Assembly: GCA_002722695.1 (NCBI GenBank) | Contig: PBMS01000013.1 | Coordinates: forward strand, 1 to 44,108 | Origin: Methanobacteriota archaeon | GTDB lineage: Archaea > Thermoplasmatota > Poseidoniia > Poseidoniales > Poseidoniaceae | Direction: 5' to 3' | DNA length: 44,108 nucleotides | Shown here: in pieces, positions 2-12,300 of the stretch | Position numbering within the stretch: the stretch's first letter is position 1 | How the letters are laid out: every line of letters starts with the position of its first letter | Translations under genes and position numbers: made by a program | Notes under the pieces: model-generated | The model's database searches: none | What the model saw: the letters and a program-made list of their open reading frames with translations, nothing else | Told to the model about the DNA's origin: nothing

Positions 2-1036
2 TTGCTTGTGACGGCCTCGCCCGTTCTGTACTACCAAGCAGGCAACCTCGTCTACACTCAAGCGGCGGCGAACAGCCCAGATTGTTCGGGTCATTCAGCG
101 AGGAACTCTCCCGATGAGTTCAGCGTCACGTTGTGGCACGAAGACGTCGATGTGGTTACGCACGAGAAAAACGACACACTTGCCTCGAATTTGAAACCCT
201 TGTGGTTCGATCATTGGGAGAACGCTTCCATTGAGGTCCCTGACGAACCGATCACGTTGGCAGCTTGGGTCATGGAGCACAACAATTCAAGCCCTTGGGT
301 CATCGTTGTCCACGGCATACGATCGTGCAAAGCAAACCACGAGACTCTTATTCCTGCAGCATGGCTTTACCAAGCTGGGTTTAACGTGATTCTATTCGAC
401 ATGCGCGACCATGGAAACAGCACGACAGAGGATGGTTTGATTTCCGCAGGACAACGTGAACACCGCGATGTCTTGGCGGTATGGCAGTGGCTTCAGGACA
501 CGAAAGGTGTCGAGCCTGAGCGGATTGGAGCGGTTGGAATCTCGATGGGCGCTGGAGCGGTAACCATTGCGTTTGAACAAGAGCCCAGACTTCAATCCGT
601 CTTTTTGGAATCGCCGTATTCAAGCATGGGCAACGTGCTCGAGGAGGAACTGGTCTTCGCTGGTTTTCCAACGTTCCTGAAAGACGCTGCTCTCTTTGCC
701 GGTAAGGTCTCCTCCGGTGATAATCTGGTCAAATACGAGCCGATTGACGCCATGAAAGTGGTTGGAAACCGCTCTGTTTACATCACGCACTCCTTGGAGG
801 ATGTGCGAATCAACTCCTATCACGGCGTGGCCATGTGTGACACCGCCAAGGAAAGTGTTGACCCAGACGGAACGGTGAAATGCTGGTTTGACTCCTCAGC
901 CATCGCTCATAACGATGGCGGGCGTGAAGGGATTCTTTCGCACATCACGCTCATGCTCACTCAGCCCGATGAATATCGGGACCGGATGGTCAGTTTCTTC
1001 GAACAAAGCATCGGTCAGCCCGATGCGGTGGTTTGA
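2..1036 (+). CDS. alpha/beta hydrolase (serine hydrolase), possibly 5'-truncated by the window edge
   Basis: ORF track; VIVVHGI oxyanion region, GISMGA nucleophile elbow, DMRDHGNS motif. Confidence 0.8.
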   Translation: MLVTASPVLYYQAGNLVYTQAAANSPDCSGHSARNSPDEFSVTLWHEDVDVVTHEKNDTLASNLKPLWFDHWENASIEVPDEPITLAAWVMEHNNSSPWVIVVHGIRSCKANHETLIPAAWLYQAGFNVILFDMRDHGNSTTEDGLISAGQREHRDVLAVWQWLQDTKGVEPERIGAVGISMGAGAVTIAFEQEPRLQSVFLESPYSSMGNVLEEELVFAGFPTFLKDAALFAGKVSSGDNLVKYEPIDAMKVVGNRSVYITHSLEDVRINSYHGVAMCDTAKESVDPDGTVKCWFDSSAIAHNDGGREGILSHITLMLTQPDEYRDRMVSFFEQSIGQPDAVV

Positions 1037-2238
1037 AGCGGGAGACGCTGACGCCCCACCCGGTGGACACCATGTCGGACGTCAATTCTCTTCGTCTGCT
1101 CGGCAGCGGGGAAAAGGCGTTGCGCATTCACGACTTGGTCAAAGCCCCTGCCAACACCCCGTGGGCCAAAGCCAAGCAGCAATCCTGGGACGCCAGCGAA
1201 CCGGCAACGCTTTACACCACTCCTGAAGTTTTGGCCGACGGCACCCCGTGCAGCGCCGTGACGGTCATCTTGCGCACCAAGGGCTGCCACTGGTGGTGGT
1301 CATCCGGGTGCACGTTTTGCGGCTACTTCAACGACACACGCGACGATGTGACCAACGAAGATCTCCACGCTCAATGGGCGGCTGCAAAGGCAAAGTTTGA
1401 CGATTTCAAGGACCAAGCCATGGTGAAGGTGTACACCTCCGGAAGTCTGCTTGAAGACCGAGAAATCCCCGTTGAATTTCAGGAGACTGTGTTGCGAGAT
1501 TGCGCGGATCTTGGAAAGGAGCTCATCGTGGAGAGTCGTTGTGAACAGTTGACCGAGGAGAAGCTCGCTTGGGCCACCTCGATCAATCCGACCTTCACCG
1601 TGGCCATTGGATTGGAGGCGTACGACGACGAAGTGCTTCGTTTTCATGTGAACAAAGGCTTCACCACAAAATCGTGGGACAGGGCCGTTGCTAATCTGAG
1701 CAAATTCAATCTTCGCATCAAAACGTACCTGATGTTCAAGCCCCCGTTCATGAGCGAAGCCGACGCCCTGGACCACAGCGTGAAGTGGATTTCCGCCGTG
1801 GCCGAGCGTTCCGACGAGATTTCCGTTAACCCGATGAACATCCAGCGCGGGACGGTCATCGACCGCCTTCATCGCCACAACGAGTATCGTCCACCGTGGT
1901 TGTGGTCGTTGGTGGAAATGATTCGTCAAGCACATCCATACATCCACCCGGAGGGGGGCATCAACGGCGATTCTGGTCAGGTCGCTCGCCTTATCGTTCA
2001 CCCGACGGCCGGGGGAAAAATTCGCGGCTCTCACAACTGCGGCTCCTGCGACGGAGAAGTCGTGGCCGCCATCGAACGCTACGCCGTCTCAGGCAGCCTT
2101 CTTGAGTTCGAGGGACTCTCTTGCGAATGCGAATCTGTCTGGAAAAACGAGCTCAGCCTTGAACGAAAGCTGCCCGTACCCCTTGGTCTCTCCAAACCTC
2201 GACGAGGTTCCGTGATTGAACGACTGCGCTCTCCTTGA
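1033..2238 (+). CDS. radical SAM protein, archaeosine biosynthesis RaSEA-like (Elp3-related)
   Basis: GCHWWWSSGCTFCGYFND cysteine cluster, YTSGSLLEDREIP, ESRCEQLT, C-terminal HNCGSC; actual start possibly the internal ATG encoding MSDVNS. Confidence 0.75.
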   Translation: MKRETLTPHPVDTMSDVNSLRLLGSGEKALRIHDLVKAPANTPWAKAKQQSWDASEPATLYTTPEVLADGTPCSAVTVILRTKGCHWWWSSGCTFCGYFNDTRDDVTNEDLHAQWAAAKAKFDDFKDQAMVKVYTSGSLLEDREIPVEFQETVLRDCADLGKELIVESRCEQLTEEKLAWATSINPTFTVAIGLEAYDDEVLRFHVNKGFTTKSWDRAVANLSKFNLRIKTYLMFKPPFMSEADALDHSVKWISAVAERSDEISVNPMNIQRGTVIDRLHRHNEYRPPWLWSLVEMIRQAHPYIHPEGGINGDSGQVARLIVHPTAGGKIRGSHNCGSCDGEVVAAIERYAVSGSLLEFEGLSCECESVWKNELSLERKLPVPLGLSKPRRGSVIERLRSP

Positions 2239-2344: not shown

Positions 2345-2617
2345 ATGACAAACTCACGAGCCCTCCCCGACACGACCGTCGGAACGGGGGAACCGACCGC
2401 CAGCCGAATTGTCCTGACGTTGTTCTTCGTGGGTCTTCTCGGTCTTTACTCTCTCTTTTCCAACGTGTTTGGGTGGGACAACCTCCCCCTGCTGGGTGAG
2501 TTGGTACCCCTGGTACAGAATCTTGGCGGAAGCGGAATCTGGTACTATCTCATCGGCTTCTTGGTGGGTGTGGGCGCCATTGTTGCAACCCTTGTTGGCG
2601 AGGTCCTCGCCGAGTGA
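2345..2617 (+). CDS. small membrane protein (about 2 TM helices)
   Basis: ORF with hydrophobic segments; SD-like GAGGTGA precedes ATG 2345; directly upstream of and co-directional with the oxidase-like gene. Confidence 0.6.
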   Translation: MTNSRALPDTTVGTGEPTASRIVLTLFFVGLLGLYSLFSNVFGWDNLPLLGELVPLVQNLGGSGIWYYLIGFLVGVGAIVATLVGEVLAE

Positions 2618-2632: not shown

Positions 2633-4618
2633 ATGGAGACCATCTTCATCTCAGCCGGTTTTCTGGCCGGTGCCCTTTTCTTTCTTTCACAGTCCCTCTC
2701 AAAGGGTGTTGGCTCCGTCGGTGGGGCTTTGAAGCAAATCGGTCTTTTCATCCTGCGAAAGAATCCCCCTGGCCTCGTCGATATCTTTGATGACAGGGAC
2801 GGCAGCGGTTCTCGCACGTGGATGAACTTCGGTATGTTGTGGTTGGTGTTCGCCACCCTTCTCGGATTTCTGATGGGTTGGCACACCTACGATCCCACCG
2901 CACTTGATTCGCTTGCCAGCGTCGGCTGGTCCTACGACGACGGCTCCTCCTTGACCGATGCAACACTGAACTTCCTGACCATTGCTCTGCTCTACGGATT
3001 GATCGGCAGTGGCATGGTCGCAACGGCTCGCAACGGCAACGGACGGTTGGCCAGTGAGGCCAACGCCTCGATGGTCGCAGTGTTGCTCTCAGCTGTCTTT
3101 CTTGCAACCTACATCCTGCCGTTCATCTTCGGGTTTCTCGACATCGACACCGAGGAGGGCGGGGTTGCGATTCTGCTCTACAGCCTCGAGACGCTCGCCA
3201 TGGGCATGCTGCTGATTCCGGTGTTCATCAATCTCCTCATCACCGCAGCCAATCGAGGCGAGCAAGCGTTGCAAACAAGCGTGTGGTTCCTGCTCATCGG
3301 CGTTGCAGCGTTCATCTTATCGATGCTGTACATGTTTTTCGGAGAACTCGCCGGTGCCACTCAAACGGTGTGGCTCGCTGAGCGCGTGGCCCACGGCTGG
3401 GTCCCACTTGCACTCATGTTTTCCGTTGGCTACCACGTCATTCCCATGACCGCCAAGCAACCGATTTGGTCCGCTTCAATGCGAACGGCCAGCATGTTTC
3501 TTCTTTTCATCACCGTTCCTCCGTTCTTCATGACCGACGCATCCGGCAGTAACTTCGTCACAAACATCGGTGCTATCTTGCTGACGTTGGGCGTGCTGCC
3601 CATCTTTGCAGCTTCCAGCAATCTTCTGTTCACCGCAGGATCGGGCCTCAGCGCCGTGGTGAAAAAACCGGGCGCCATGGCTGCCACAATGGCGTTCCTC
3701 GCGCTACCGTTCTTCGCTGTTGGTGGCTACTTTACCGCCATGGACACCTTTGTTGGAACCGGTGAACTCGGAACCATGGGGCAAGTCATCGACATGGGGA
3801 TGCTGTTCACCGTCGGCGGCTTGCTCGTGCTTGCAGGTGTGTTTACGAACTATCCAAACGCCATCGGAAAGCCTCTGGCCACACCTTCCACGGGTACGCT
3901 CGCCTCGTGGATGGTCTTGGTGGGCGGCGTGGCATCGACGATGGCCTACCTCATCGGGGAGTTCACGGCCAACGCAGTCTCAGCATCTGAGATTGAAGAC
4001 GTGGTCGCCAACAACGGTGGCTTCTACCTCACGGGATCCGGTCTCTTCTACATGGCCGCCATCGGCACCATTCTCGCCACGATGGTTGTGATTCGCACCG
4101 GTATTTCGGCCACCGGACGCTCACTTGATGTCGTCGAGACGTCCGATGTCAGCACCTACACCCTGACGTCGGGCTCCTCCACGACCATCCGTGACCTCAT
4201 TGGCCGTGGCGTGGGTGTCGACACCGCGCTTGTGATCAGTGAAACCGAAGAAAACAAGGGCGGCTCAACCCTCATCGCCGTCGATTCAGCGCTTCACAAC
4301 GATGAGATCAACGAATTCCCACCCAGTTCGGACACCACCATGGTGGCCTTTGTCCAGTTCCTTACCGACACCGATCAATCGGTGTTTGACCTTTTCAGAA
4401 GCATGGACTTGGACGATTCCGGAAAAATTGATGCAAGCGAATTCTTGGCCGCACTGGAATCTTCTCCGATCGGTGCTCTCTCTTCGATAGAAGCCTCGGA
4501 TTTGGTGGCCAGCATGGATTTGGACGGGGACGGGGAATTGAACCTCCCCGAGCTCGACATCGCCATTGCTCAAGTCAAGCGGGACCACGACCTCGTCCCC
4601 TCCGTAGAAGAGGAGTGA
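2633..4618 (+). CDS. polytopic membrane protein resembling heme-copper oxidase subunit I (CcoN-like) lacking most metal ligands, with C-terminal EF-hand pair
   Basis: Alignment by eye to CcoN landmarks (QTVWLAERVAHGWVPLALMFSVGYHVIPMTAKQPIWSASMR); EF-hands DLDDSGKIDASEF and DLDGDGELNLPEL. Confidence 0.65.
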   Translation: METIFISAGFLAGALFFLSQSLSKGVGSVGGALKQIGLFILRKNPPGLVDIFDDRDGSGSRTWMNFGMLWLVFATLLGFLMGWHTYDPTALDSLASVGWSYDDGSSLTDATLNFLTIALLYGLIGSGMVATARNGNGRLASEANASMVAVLLSAVFLATYILPFIFGFLDIDTEEGGVAILLYSLETLAMGMLLIPVFINLLITAANRGEQALQTSVWFLLIGVAAFILSMLYMFFGELAGATQTVWLAERVAHGWVPLALMFSVGYHVIPMTAKQPIWSASMRTASMFLLFITVPPFFMTDASGSNFVTNIGAILLTLGVLPIFAASSNLLFTAGSGLSAVVKKPGAMAATMAFLALPFFAVGGYFTAMDTFVGTGELGTMGQVIDMGMLFTVGGLLVLAGVFTNYPNAIGKPLATPSTGTLASWMVLVGGVASTMAYLIGEFTANAVSASEIEDVVANNGGFYLTGSGLFYMAAIGTILATMVVIRTGISATGRSLDVVETSDVSTYTLTSGSSTTIRDLIGRGVGVDTALVISETEENKGGSTLIAVDSALHNDEINEFPPSSDTTMVAFVQFLTDTDQSVFDLFRSMDLDDSGKIDASEFLAALESSPIGALSSIEASDLVASMDLDGDGELNLPELDIAIAQVKRDHDLVPSVEEE

Positions 4619-4634: not shown

Positions 4635-5924
4635 GTGGTGTCCGTGCGCATCGGCCTCGTGGGAAAACCCAATGTGGGAAAATCGACGTTCTTCAGCGCA
4701 GCGACGCTCGCTCAGGTGGACATCGCCAATTACCCCTTCTGCACCATCGATCCGAACGTGGGTGTGGCGTTTGTTGAGGCTCGTCTGCCGTGCCCGTGCG
4801 GTGCACTGAGGAGCAAACTGGAAGCCGATGGGCGACTGGAGGCGCCCAGCGAGGACGACGACCGACACGGCAGTCTCTGCCAGCCCAGAACCGGTTCATG
4901 CATCAATCACCGACGTTTTGTTCCGGTGTCCCTCGTCGATGTTGCAGGGTTGGTCCCGGGCGCCAGCGAAGGCCGGGGACGAGGTAACGCCTTTCTGGCG
5001 GATCTGGCCAACTGCGACGTGTTGATTCAGGTGGTTGACGCCGCTGGCTCAACCGACCTCGAAGGCCAGTTCACCGGAGCGGCCACCAGCACAGAGGCAG
5101 CCATTGAATGCGTTCGAGCGGAGATAGAATTCTTGGAGCACGAGTTGGATGCGTGGATCGGCGGTCTGTTGCAGGACGGCTGGCATCGCGGCGTTCGACG
5201 CGTGCAGGCAGAGGGAGAAAAGGGACTGACCTCGTTCGTTAGCGACCGTTTGAGTGGCTTGGGAGCAACCCCTTCCCGCGTGGCTCAAGGCATGCACGCG
5301 TTCGATCAACGGCATCGCACCGATAAGCAACCGTGGGATTGGGACTCGTCCTCGCTTCACCTCCTCGGCCAGTGCATGCGGGAGCAGTTGTTTCCCATCG
5401 TTTATGCAGCCAACAAAATGGACATTGCACCACCCGGCGTCCTGGATGCTTTTCCAGACCGCACCATGGTGGCCTGTATGTCGGACATGGAACTCGCTCT
5501 GAGTCGAGCCGCCTCGGCTGGACTTATACGCTATCAAAAAGGAGCCACAACCTTTGCCGTGAACGATTCTGCGGACCTGACCGAGGCTCAATCAAAGGCT
5601 CTGACCCACATGCAGGCCCGCCTCGAACAGGCCGGAGGGACCGGTCTGGCTCGCCTTCTTGACGAGGTTCTCTTCGACCAACTCAACCGCATCGTGGTCT
5701 ACCCCGTTCAGGACGAAACGCACTGGGTGGACGGCGACGGGCGAATCCTGCCCGACGCATTGGTCGTTCCGTTGGGCATTCACGCCAAAGCACTCGCGGG
5801 GCATGTCCATACCGATCTCGAGGAGGGCTTCATCCGAGGTGTTGACGGGCGAACGCGCCGTGTGGTCGGGGCCGATCACGAGTTGGGCGACGGTGACGTG
5901 TTGAAAATCCACGCTAAAACGTGA
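4635..5924 (+). CDS. YchF/Obg-like GTP-binding protein with C-terminal TGS domain
   Basis: GLVGKPNVGKSTFF (P-loop), DVAGLVPGASEGRGRGNAFL, NKMD, TGS-like C-terminus. Confidence 0.88.
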   Translation: MVSVRIGLVGKPNVGKSTFFSAATLAQVDIANYPFCTIDPNVGVAFVEARLPCPCGALRSKLEADGRLEAPSEDDDRHGSLCQPRTGSCINHRRFVPVSLVDVAGLVPGASEGRGRGNAFLADLANCDVLIQVVDAAGSTDLEGQFTGAATSTEAAIECVRAEIEFLEHELDAWIGGLLQDGWHRGVRRVQAEGEKGLTSFVSDRLSGLGATPSRVAQGMHAFDQRHRTDKQPWDWDSSSLHLLGQCMREQLFPIVYAANKMDIAPPGVLDAFPDRTMVACMSDMELALSRAASAGLIRYQKGATTFAVNDSADLTEAQSKALTHMQARLEQAGGTGLARLLDEVLFDQLNRIVVYPVQDETHWVDGDGRILPDALVVPLGIHAKALAGHVHTDLEEGFIRGVDGRTRRVVGADHELGDGDVLKIHAKT

Positions 5925-6365: not shown

Positions 6366-8594
6366 TCAACCTGAAAGGAAACGGGCGATGAGCCGGTGCC
6401 CTTCGTGCGAACCGATGGATTCAGGGTGCACCTGAACCCCATGGACGTTGAGGCTTGGATGCCTCAATCCCATGATGAGTCCTGAGGCGGCTTCTGTGGC
6501 GTTGACGAGCATCGAATGCTCGCCGTCGTCGAGGGCCACCAAGGAGTTGTATCGAGTGAGCGTCATTGGCGATGTTTGCGACTCAAAGACACCTGAGCCG
6601 TCGTGGGCCACTTCAACCGGTACACCATGCACCGGTCCGTGCGGTGAGGGGGTGACGGGGCGGCCGTCGGCCACTGCGAGAGCTTGGTGGCCCAAGCATA
6701 CGCCCAACACGGGTACCTTCAGTTGACCAGCCAGCGCATGGTGCGCCAGCGCCATCGTAAGTCTGGCATCTTCTGGACGACCCGGGCCGGGTCCCAGAAC
6801 GATGTGAGATGGCTGCAAGGTTTCCAGCAAGTCGTGAAGCGCCACCGGGTCAAGCCAGCGTTCGCTTTGAGGCGATCGTCCTTCCAGCACGGTGACGTTT
6901 CGTCCTGTCTGGGCGATGGCATCGGCGATGTTTAGAGAAAATGAATCGAGGTTATCCACGAACAGCACACCGGTTTTCGCAGTCGTTTCGACGGCCTCAG
7001 AAAGCGACTGGATGGTGCCGAGTTTGCGAATCGACTCGGAGCTGTTTGGGGATTTCATTGGGTGAATGCCGAGGGCTCCCGTGGGCAGCGGCGTGTGCTC
7101 TTCATCCATCCAGCCTGCTGCGATTCGTAGGGCTGCTCCTTTCCATGCCGCTTCCTCCACCTCGTTTTTTGGCTCCGAAGCGATGGTGATTCCTCCACCC
7201 GCACCCACCGACCCCTGCCATCGGCCGTTCGAGAGGTGAGCTTCAAGCGTTCGTATCAGAATGTTCCAAGCGGAACGTCCAGAATGCACGTCGATGTAGC
7301 CAATTGAACCTGTCCAAAACGACCTTGGCATCTGCTCAAGTTGGTCGATGACGGCGCAAACCACCGTGCGCGGGCAGCCGGTGATGGAGCCACCCGGAAA
7401 GACGGCTTGAAGCGCCGAAGCACCGTTGTGGTCGGGTCGTAGTGTTGCCGTGATGTGACTGACCAGGTGCTGAACATTTGCGTAGGCTTCAACATCGAAT
7501 CGGCTGACCTTCACACTGCCGGGAATCGCCACCTGGGTCAGGTCGTTGCGCATTAGATCGACCAGCATGCGGTGCTCCGCTCGCTCTTTTTGATCGGCGA
7601 TCATTTGCTGGCGCAGGCTGGCTGCTTCGGTCAAGTTGGCCCCCTGCGGGCAGGTCCCTTTGATGGGAGAAGTTTGGAGGGTCGCTCCATCCAGCATGAG
7701 CAGGGATTCCGGGGATGAACTGGCAAGAGCGAAGCCCAAATCCTCCGCGTGAGTGTACGCAGAAAACGGGGCTGGATTTTGGTCCATCAATCGTTGAAAA
7801 ACAGCGTAGGGATCATCGATTTCACCCTGCCAGTGTTTCCCAATGTTGACCTGATACACCTGGCCGTTGACGATGCCTTGACGCACCGCCTCAACGTTGT
7901 CAGCGTGCGCCTCATCGGTGTGTGTAACGGATTCTCTGTGATGATGAAGAGGAGAAATTGACGCCTCGGTTCGCCTTTTGTCAATGCACGCCTTCGCAGC
8001 GGTGCACCACGATTCGTCCGATCCGAAGATGCGCACTTCATCCGCCTCATGGTCGACCACAGCACCGCCATGGATGCACCAAAGCACGGCGAGGAGGGCC
8101 CCCTCATCGGGTGGGTGCTGCAGACGAAGCGGTTGGGTCCACTGCACCAGGTCGTACGCCAAAGCCCCCGACCAAAAGGGTCCATCCGGCAAATCAACAC
8201 CGTGCGACCGTTCGAACGACTCCCGGCTCGTTTCCGTCCTTAACTTCTCGAACAGGTCGCCAAGGTCTCGGGCGCGAAGCGTCACGCTGTGGTACCATGA
8301 ACCGTGTTTCCATTCTTCCACTTCGGCTCGCAGAAGCACCCGCTCTTCGTTCACTCGGACGTCGCCCGAAAGGGGGTCGTGCGGTTCTGCAGCGGGAAGA
8401 ACACCTCGCAGGGGTTGACGCACCACGACCCGCTTTGCGGAAGGTGCTGCCACCAAGGACCACTTGGCAAGGTGAGACACCGGACCTCCTGAGACCAACA
8501 ACACTCGGTCAGGTGAACCGAAGCGAAAGGCGGCTTCACCCAGCAGTCCATTGGCGGCAAACCGGTCAACAAGAGCCATCACGCGTTTCGACAT
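6366..8594 (-). CDS. pabBA: aminodeoxychorismate synthase, fused PabB (N-term) and PabA glutamine amidotransferase (C-term)
   Basis: PIKGT (PabB-type lysine), GGSITGCPR, ERAEHRMLVDLMRNDL; GPGPGRPEDA, GVCLGHQ, HPES triad of class I GATase. Confidence 0.85.
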   Translation of the reverse strand: MSKRVMALVDRFAANGLLGEAAFRFGSPDRVLLVSGGPVSHLAKWSLVAAPSAKRVVVRQPLRGVLPAAEPHDPLSGDVRVNEERVLLRAEVEEWKHGSWYHSVTLRARDLGDLFEKLRTETSRESFERSHGVDLPDGPFWSGALAYDLVQWTQPLRLQHPPDEGALLAVLWCIHGGAVVDHEADEVRIFGSDESWCTAAKACIDKRRTEASISPLHHHRESVTHTDEAHADNVEAVRQGIVNGQVYQVNIGKHWQGEIDDPYAVFQRLMDQNPAPFSAYTHAEDLGFALASSSPESLLMLDGATLQTSPIKGTCPQGANLTEAASLRQQMIADQKERAEHRMLVDLMRNDLTQVAIPGSVKVSRFDVEAYANVQHLVSHITATLRPDHNGASALQAVFPGGSITGCPRTVVCAVIDQLEQMPRSFWTGSIGYIDVHSGRSAWNILIRTLEAHLSNGRWQGSVGAGGGITIASEPKNEVEEAAWKGAALRIAAGWMDEEHTPLPTGALGIHPMKSPNSSESIRKLGTIQSLSEAVETTAKTGVLFVDNLDSFSLNIADAIAQTGRNVTVLEGRSPQSERWLDPVALHDLLETLQPSHIVLGPGPGRPEDARLTMALAHHALAGQLKVPVLGVCLGHQALAVADGRPVTPSPHGPVHGVPVEVAHDGSGVFESQTSPMTLTRYNSLVALDDGEHSMLVNATEAASGLIMGLRHPSLNVHGVQVHPESIGSHEGHRLIARFLSG

Positions 8595-9330
8595 GGTCTG
8601 GCCCCGTCGATGACCATGTGGCCTCCTCGGTAAAATGTTGGGACAGCAAACGATGGCAGGCGGTTGAAAGAGCGGTAGAATCGCCTGTTTTGACGCCGTC
8701 GATCGTGTCGACTCGACAAACGCCCATGCCGGTTCCAACGAGCACGAATTCTGCGCATCGAGCAACGGTTCGTTCGTTCAATCTCCCTTTGACCACCGGG
8801 AGGCCGAGGGAAGGAAGCATGGCCTCAAGCACAGTAGCCGTGATCCCGTTCACGCCACCTTCGGAGGCATGAGCGACCCAAACCGTCCCGTCCTCATCGA
8901 GGACCATGGGGGTTGCCCGGTCTGCGTCGACGACAGCGTGCTCATGAATCAGCAACGCTGCGTCACAGCCGACCTTTTCAGCAGCTTCAGCAGCGTCCTT
9001 GTAGGCCGTCCAATCCCCGTGTTTTGTTCCGTTTGTGCGTGCGTTCCATCGAGGCGCTGCCACCGATATGGCGTCGACGGGCTCGTTTCGAAGTTGGAGG
9101 GGACGCACACTTACGCTCCATCCATGCTCGGGGGAGAAGCCGATGCGGGCGAGACACCGCTGTTCGCTTTGGGGTACGCTCACGGTTGGTCCTGTTTCTG
9201 GCAGTTCAATTCGCAACCGAGCGGCGTGATCGTTCATTCGTTGTCGGTGTTGCGGCCAGTCCGCAACCATGCCGCGTTCGTTGACCAGCACGGTCGTGAA
9301 GACTTCAGAGCGCGGCCCGCTGGAAGCCAT
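8566..9330 (-). CDS. pabC: aminotransferase class IV / 4-amino-4-deoxychorismate lyase
   Basis: Class IV fold signatures; overlaps the start of pabBA by about 29 bp, typical translational coupling. Confidence 0.75.
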   Translation of the reverse strand: MASSGPRSEVFTTVLVNERGMVADWPQHRQRMNDHAARLRIELPETGPTVSVPQSEQRCLARIGFSPEHGWSVSVRPLQLRNEPVDAISVAAPRWNARTNGTKHGDWTAYKDAAEAAEKVGCDAALLIHEHAVVDADRATPMVLDEDGTVWVAHASEGGVNGITATVLEAMLPSLGLPVVKGRLNERTVARCAEFVLVGTGMGVCRVDTIDGVKTGDSTALSTACHRLLSQHFTEEATWSSTGPDHVETRDGSC

Positions 9331-9340
9331 GGTGTCGCCC

Positions 9341-12300
9341 TCACAACAGATCGTCGAGGAACGACGTGTCAATCTCCGGTTTCTTCGGCGTCGACGGTTC
9401 GTCGAGCAGACCGTCCAACAAGGCAGGGTCTACCTGCGGTTTCAGAACGGGTTGCGGCGCTTGGTAGGCCGATCGCCCGTAGGTTTCGGCTTGACCTTGA
9501 CCGGTTGGGGCGTAGATGTTGTTGCCTTGTTGGGTCGTAAGGCCCGGTGGAGGCGCTGGAGCCGATACGGGGGCCGCAGTTGAAGCGATGGGCGTGTCCC
9601 ACGAAGCGTCTTGGATGCCCCACGTGGCTTCTTGCAGTTCGTAGGTTTTGGACCGCTGCGTGGCGCTGCTTCGAGAACGGACCACGACGGCCAAGAGGAG
9701 CACGATGATCAGAAGCATGCCTGCCGCGATGAGGTTGGGTGTTGTCAGCAAGGACTCAAGGGACAACTGTCCGTCGTCTTGTCCACCGTCGCCGACGGTC
9801 TCGGCACCCCCCAGGGGCGCGACCATGATGGCTTCCACCGTTTTCTTGGCGACGCCTTCGCGGTCGTAGGGCGTGACCGCAACGTAGTAGGTGGTCTCGT
9901 TGTTGAGGCCTGGGAACGTCTCCGGCGTGATGAGAATCTCGTTGGCAGATTTCTTTTTATCGAGGTACGTTGCGTTGTCGGTGGACGTGAACATTTCTTC
10001 GCTGATGTAGATGTGATAGCCTTCGACGTTGGCATCGACAGAGTGCTGCCATTCCACAAAGATGTTCACCTCCTCGTACCACTCAGCCTCCACCCGCTCA
10101 ATGTCTGGAAGATAGACGCCTGGGTCGGTGATGCCTTGGTCGGTGGGGGTTGCTGAAACCATTGTGAGCATGGTTGTGTGTGCATTGCCCGAGGAGTCCA
10201 TGGCCACCACGGCCACCCAAACCTGTTGTTCGGCCTGAACAGGGGTGTCGCGGCCAACCCGTTCGATCACCAGCGGGAGGCTGGGGTTTCTGTCCAGTTC
10301 AGCAATCCACAACGGGTTGTTGTACAGGTCCGTCTGTTGATCCACCGAACCACCGAAGTCGTAGGTGTCGGCGAAGACGAGGTAGGACGCGATGTCGTCT
10401 GCATCCGACAGCTCGAAGTCAAGGAGCAAAGCCTTCCCGTCGTCGTTGGGACGGTCGAGCAATTCAATGTCGACCAGGCGGTCTGGGGCGGTGTTGTCGT
10501 TGACGTTGTCGACCGGCGTCACCGTTGCTTGCGTAAGGTCGGTGAGATGGACGTTGCCTTTGAGGTCGTGGACCGTCACGGCGACGAACAGTTCCACGCC
10601 GGGTTGAATCAGACCGGGGATGCCGTCGGACAGATCATCGCCGTCCGGCGTGTACAGGGCAGCGGACAGGGGGAGTTCAATCGGGTTGGTTCGCTCGTCG
10701 ATCCACTGCTTGTTGAAACTGAAACAGCCGCAGACATCGGGGTTGTTGCCAAACGTAGCGTAGGCGCGGGACAGGTCCTCCACCGGTGCATCGGCAACCC
10801 AGACGGTGTAGGAGGCGAAGTCTTCCACCGTGGACGGTTCCCACACCACATCGATGGTCGTGCCGTCGTCGTCCGGGTGGTCAAAGGCCATCAGCGACGT
10901 GATTCGGGGCGGTGTGGCGCCCTGTCCGACGATGTTTTGCAGCGGCTCAGCGGCTCTTAGGAGGACTTCGTCGGTGTTCCCGTTCAACCAAACATCGTAG
11001 GCAACAATTCCAACGGTGTAGATTTGCCCGTCGATGAGCGGGACACCGTCAAGCGTTGAGACAACGGTTTCGATTTCGTCGCACGGATTGATGACGGCGG
11101 CTTGGGAATACCCTTCAACGCTGCCGAGTTCTCCCTCAGGCAGCGTGTGGTCGCCCTGCTTCATGTACACGGTGTAGAAGGCGCAATCCTCGGCTTCGCT
11201 TGCGGTCCACGTCATCACCAAGCGACCTCCTTCGTCGTCGGGGACGTCGCTGACGGTGGTGTCTTGAATCGGCGCAGGAGCCTCGTTGTCGTTCAGTTCT
11301 CCGGTGGGGACGATCGGCCCAACCACTGCGACATCGGAGAGGTTCTCTTGTCCGGCTTGATCGACGCACGTCAGTCCAATCCACACCGGTACGCCGGGTG
11401 TCTGCTTGATGATCGATTGATTTCCTTCGTTTGGTGCGTAGGACGTGTATGGGGTTCGTCCAAGGGCGTCAGCCATCGGCGTGGTCGAGACGTAAACGTT
11501 GGTGCTGGCAAGATCGATGGCCGTGCATCGGGCCCACTCGAGCTCGATGTCGCCGTCCTCTCCATTGCTGCCCATGGCGCTAGCTGCGACCCATGCTGGG
11601 GCGCGGGGCACCTCATCGCTTGGTGAGGCTGGACCGAACGGCGATGAGACCTTACCCCATCGCCCATCACTGTATTCAACAACGGCCACAGCGTAGTAGT
11701 CCGTGCCGTCCTTCAGGGGCTGACCGTTGGCGGTTTCGATGTCGGCTGCTAAACGGCTGTGGAGCGAGACGGCCTTGTCGGGGGCTTGGCCGAGGAGATC
11801 CGGTTCACCCGGCGGGCTGGTCCACGGACCTTCGTTGAGGAAGATGAGATAGCGAGCAAAGTCTTCGTCGTGGACCAACGACCAGGAAGCGGTCAAAACG
11901 CCGCCGCCGTCGTCGGGGCGGTCTTCGAGACCTTGGACGACCACCGGGGTGTCGGTGCGAACGTAATCGTAGGTCAATCGAACTTCAAGCGATCCGTTGG
12001 CCGGAGAGAACAATCGCAGCGAAACGTGCCGCGTGTTGTTGTAGAGCTGACCGTTGTCAACAGCGTCTTGAAGGTTGCTTTGCAGGCTCGGGTCCTCGCT
12101 GATGTTCAGGGTAACGTCGTATTCCATGGCGATGGATTTCGCCCAAACAGCGGCGCCGGTTGTGGGCGAAGTCAAGACGACAGGAACGTTTTGGAAGAGC
12201 AAGCCGTGCACACCGGGGGTGCCTTGTGCTGCATCAAGGGGGTAAGGGTCGCTTGGGTCGACCAGTTCGATGGGCATGCCCAAGTGCGTCATGTCAGAAA

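Follow-up and report, generated by a model that had tools for sequence, protein, structure and literature searches.

The window analysed here, a stretch of 44,108 nucleotides corresponding to contig C13 of its source genome (1.63 Mb, 70.7% complete, with relatives carrying the names Poseidonia or Candidatus Poseidoniaceae), encodes a 661-aa membrane protein (2633..4618, + strand) that is almost certainly both a homologue of CcoN, subunit I of the cbb3-type oxidases, and stripped of the metal ligands of that enzyme. The open reading frame is intact (ATG at 2633, stop codon at 4616-4618) with a GC content of ~57% that matches its surroundings. In the best explanation, the protein has no cofactors and either descends from subunit I of the C-family (cbb3-type) heme-copper oxidases or branches off beside it, and works together with a small neighbouring protein as a scaffold or regulator; in this full form, functional role included, we hold it tentatively and at slightly under even confidence. 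The protein is a member of the superfamily by fold and descent but not by the enzyme's defining features, and it seems that an oxidase fold has here been put to a new, non-catalytic use.

Poseidoniales, also known as Marine Group II, are abundant archaea of the ocean. Metal ligands are the defining feature of heme-copper oxidases, and a ligand-free branch strongly conserved across this order suggests that the fold can outlast its chemistry. Annotating such proteins as cytochrome oxidase would be wrong, which bears on the respiration that is inferred from genomes of uncultured marine archaea. In the part of the literature covered, neither an oxidase-fold family without any ligands nor a heme-less homologue was described.

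Relationship to CcoN and the oxidase fold

Searches of Pfam, NCBIfam, PHROGs and PDB sequences with the window protein alone returned EF-hands or nothing, with no membrane family among the results and no match to NCBIfam ccoN (TIGR00780). One NCBIfam match, to XopAW (34 bits, cut-off 120), was discarded since it covers the EF-hand pair only. The relationship emerges from the family: a member from another genus of the window's family (L073) matches Pfam COX1 at 40.6 bits, above the cut-off of 34.8, and gives 7e-8 in tblastn against a real ccoN. A profile built from 38 members found only CcoN (E 4e-12 to 2e-9) and NorB (0.007) among 177,635 PDB sequences, and CcoN was found as well by a profile of the members lacking EF-hands alone (1e-8). 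In profile-profile alignment with hhalign, seven CcoN proteins were matched with 98.6% probability and a score of 130.7 over 415 columns, compared with 18-27 for block-shuffled controls.

The predicted structure points the same way. An AlphaFold model made without templates (pLDDT 80.5) places 12 helices where the oxidases have theirs and adds one at the N-terminus, and the AlphaFold helices, Foldseek and hhalign together delimit a CcoN-like membrane domain of 12 helices at residues 58-491 (2804..4105, +). All of the best 42 PDB matches of this model in Foldseek are heme-copper oxidases, headed by cbb3 CcoN (E ~1e-7, TM-score up to 0.77 of the target), and the first unrelated fold follows at a TM-score of 0.13. 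A significant sequence-profile relationship to the heme-copper oxidase superfamily is therefore accompanied by its 12-helix fold, the latter on a predicted model. The initial annotation had proposed distant homology to CcoN by eye, and would have given it up for an unrelated transporter or channel fold or for want of a significant oxidase profile match; given the CcoN profile matches and the oxidase-only top folds, neither is the case, and the profile, profile-profile, pairwise and fold evidence concur with the proposal.

Near-invariant residues of the family equal the CcoN consensus at 14/27 positions, against 36/266 of the variable ones, which indicates that the scaffold was retained as the cofactor sites went; W218, S280, N330, P408, W426 and G431 are among the scaffold residues shared with CcoN (PDB 3mk7, 9g6b, 8smr). 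The present family has the 12-helix fold and the 415 alignable columns in common with CcoN and differs from it in having no heme or CuB ligands and no ccoO/ccoP neighbours, and in carrying extra parts: an N-terminal helix, a cytosolic element at the C-terminus and, in one of the order's two families, EF-hands. Nitric oxide reductase NorB (PDB 3o0r, 4xyd) shares the fold (TM-score 0.71-0.73 of the target) with a weak profile match, so that its similarity stays below that of CcoN, and again the present family lacks the ligands. A further possible comparison is offered by the halobacterial fam02696, which is reported to have no KEGG or Pfam annotation but distant homology to oxidase subunit I (PMC9258230), and which often lies beside oxidase genes.

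The failure of the window protein alone to match COX1, or any PDB entry beyond EF-hands, would be expected if it had no homology to oxidases at all. We give practically no credence to that reading, as the lines of evidence above are all concordant, nor to a decaying pseudogene. The gene is present in 278/293 Poseidoniales genomes, including all 35 of good quality, and comparison of the window gene with close relatives (dN 0.05-0.12, dS 1.1-1.8) yields dN/dS values of 0.04-0.09, hence strong purifying selection.

Heme and copper ligand positions

To map the cofactor sites we used H60, H207, H347, H349 and H257/H258 (P. stutzeri numbering), the ligand positions established for the cbb3 structure. 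None of the six canonical ligands is kept in the window protein. The low-spin heme pair H60 and H349 corresponds to A110 and M388, and the two His never occur together in any of 40 members; the high-spin heme ligand H347 corresponds to I386, in a column without His in 40/40 members. At the CuB site, H207 is replaced by R251 (codon 3383..3385, +, placed by the alignments), and the TM7 stretch of H257/H258 (residues 290-306) holds no His. The hhalign and HMMER registers differ by about ten residues near TM10 and by a few in TM7, and in every register these sites are without His. Across the 40 members, which represent 22 genera, any one protein has at most 1 canonical ligand.

Most of what the initial annotation had read from the motifs holds under this mapping, namely that the TM2 heme ligand, the TM10 heme ligands and the CuB His pair are gone, and its suggested survey of homologues likewise bears out the ligand loss. 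Its one exception does not: H254 had been taken as a retained CuB ligand of the GHNAV type, and is ruled out by the alignments, being three residues off the position of H207, so that the count of kept ligands falls to zero.

His is found at position 251 in ten of the 40 members and at position 388 in four, requiring three and two changes on the tree, respectively; such scattered changes are the pattern expected from piecemeal loss or replacement. These single canonical His left in some lineages, together with the 9-12 membrane-domain His of the L080-L083 clade, would suit a protein that still binds heme or another metal through non-canonical ligands. For the family we consider this very unlikely: the window protein has five His (84, 254, 268, 555 and 652), three of them in the membrane domain (84, 254 and 268), a congener (L047) has two membrane-domain His, and there is no column in which all 40 members have His. 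One of the His in the L080-L083 clade lies at residue 111, one off the TM2 heme ligand, and this clade may still be metal-binding.

Gene neighbourhood and distribution

At 40/40 loci, the gene directly upstream of the oxidase-like one encodes a protein of ~90 aa that is predicted to have two membrane helices. In the window this two-helix protein (2345..2617, +; 90 aa, helices 18-42 and 65-89) ends with a stop codon 15 nt before the ATG of the oxidase-like gene. The earlier reading of the locus was incomplete in having overlooked this obligate small neighbour. The partner occurs in 33 genomes of a 145-genome sample, all of them Poseidoniales, and 33/33 also carry the oxidase-like gene. No relatives were recognised in searches that included Pfam and NCBIfam, and its structure model has low overall confidence (pTM 0.33). 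Judging from gene adjacency and co-occurrence, the two proteins probably form a complex.

In both families of the order the pair lies between the genes for the archaeosine radical SAM protein RaSEA (1033..2238, +; TIGR01210, 290.7 bits) and a YchF-related GTPase (4635..5924, +; NF007171, 405 bits, and PF08438), whose places are conserved by synteny. These, with the two-helix protein, stand where ccoO/ccoP cytochrome c subunit genes might be sought as neighbours, and the latter are absent. Nothing evident connects RaSEA or the GTPase with an oxidase fold, and we treat them as context; the gene adjoins tRNA-modification and GTPase genes, with no candidate client among them, which counts against the best explanation. 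Further along the window, on the minus strand, a PabB/TrpE-type synthase that appears to be fused to a glutamine amidotransferase (6366-8765) adjoins a class IV aminotransferase (8566-9372), and these genes are probably a p-aminobenzoate (folate) cluster.

Whole-profile searches were run within the phylum, and in a sample of 243 genomes from it the gene was found only in Poseidoniales. A marginal match outside the order (G471, E 4e-4) was rejected, as the only plausible membrane frame overlapping it is VIT1/CCC1-like by eye. The tree of the family splits cleanly into the two families of the order, where the family names of compared genomes were deduced from the literature and from those relatives whose records carry a name. 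One genome (G263) has the gene twice at full length, on contigs C17 and C39, with products sharing 84 and 85% identity with the window protein, which probably reflects mixed strains in the bin.

The initial annotation had asked for a bona fide oxidase elsewhere in the genome. Such an oxidase is present in the lineage, with COX1 over the cut-off in 107/116 genomes of the order, and was not found in the window's own, 70.7% complete genome; ccoN exceeded its cut-off in 0/116. The aa3-type COX1 of Poseidoniales (~780 aa) belongs to the same superfamily and occurs in the same genomes as the present family, and retains its HH and HFHY motifs. These same cells' aa3 oxidase might, for example, be the respiratory complex that the oxidase-like protein serves as an accessory or assembly subunit, bound via its oxidase-like surface. 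The oxidase fold and the near-universal COX1 are in favour of such a role, which we nonetheless regard as improbable: no oxidase gene lies beside the gene, the hhalign score to the lineage's own COX1 is 29.2, near the shuffle level, and the co-occurrence with COX1 is uninformative because both are near-universal. According to Tully 2019 (PMC6336850), low-affinity cytochrome c oxidases are part of the respiratory chain of Marine Group II; the passages found there make no mention of the present protein. A divergent protein of the COX1 family (L153, on contig C12 of genome G019; 559-aa frame, 129.5 bits) stands apart from the usual COX1 of the order.

The cytosolic tail and possible roles

After the membrane part, the initial annotation had pointed out two canonical EF-hands, and this is borne out: the pair matches PF13499 at 31.5 bits (cut-off 30), and loop inspection finds canonical ligand positions in both loop 1 (DLDDSGKIDASE, residues 592-603, 4406..4441, +) and loop 2 (DLDGDGELNLPE, residues 629-640, 4517..4552, +). 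With paired canonical loops over the Pfam cut-off, Ca2+ binding is predicted. The two loops are paired as in the calmodulin-type EF-hand pair, and differ from it in forming the tail of a membrane protein and in their restriction to a single family of the order. EF-hands are present in all 20 of the Poseidoniaceae examined and in none of 20 members from the order's other family. Since the other family has the same protein without them, calcium must be an add-on and not the core function, and was probably an input added in Poseidoniaceae. The earlier suggestion of a hemeless, possibly calcium-responsive protein is upheld for the ligand loss and set aside for calcium as a core function.

The predicted outer loops contain no Lys or Arg and the inner loops 14, which by the positive-inside rule places the EF-hands in the cytosol together with a family-specific C-terminal element (residues 508-536, 4154..4240, +; T-x-I-R..G-x-D-T). 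This predicted cytosolic element is conserved with or without EF-hands and lies beyond the CcoN-aligned part. For these two reasons, if members share a site of output or docking, this element is the likeliest candidate.

We favour, with some hesitation, a scaffold or regulator as the role of the protein, ahead of a channel and then of a respiratory accessory subunit. The oxidase-like protein and its two-helix partner would make up one membrane complex, with the CcoN-like bundle as a structural or regulatory body rather than a redox enzyme, and residues 508-536 as its putative site of output or docking; in Poseidoniaceae, Ca2+ control would be added by the EF-hand pair in the cytosol. Much of the evidence would equally suit a channel, or a protein accessory to the aa3 oxidase. 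In a channel or transporter of ions or solutes, the emptied heme/CuB cavity and the former proton paths would conduct, gated by the Ca2+ tail in Poseidoniaceae. The predicted 12-helix oxidase bundle and the cytosolic side of the EF-hands are in keeping with this, as is the residue at the former CuB position, which is basic (R, H or K) in 29/40 members and could bind ions. We still think a channel unlikely, given that in the remaining 11 members the same position is taken by A, V, I, S, T, Q or E, that EF-hands are absent from the core family in half of the order, and that none of the charged residues within the helix cores is invariant, an observation that speaks against a conserved ion path. 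A more novel and more doubtful reading is that of an order-wide core membrane device, built from a cofactor-less oxidase fold and the two-helix partner and Ca2+-switched in one family, which might act as a sensor or a gated channel. The family in any case opens a testable question, that of what a bare oxidase scaffold is capable of.

The tail varies further among members. A SAP domain (PF02037) replaces or follows the EF-hands at the C-termini of L068, L080 and L083; by eye, L077 has repeated segments resembling helix-hairpin-helix motifs, and L071 contains four EF-hand loops. Domain additions are thus concentrated in the cytosolic tail. Poseidoniales-specific modules with calcium-binding domains have been described (PMC9258230). 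Four more open reading frames with EF-hand pairs, one of them below the cut-off, were found on contigs C1, C15, C18 and C32 of the source genome (G000), compared with any EF-hand-pair match in 1/14 control genomes, and EF-hand proteins seem to be common in this lineage.
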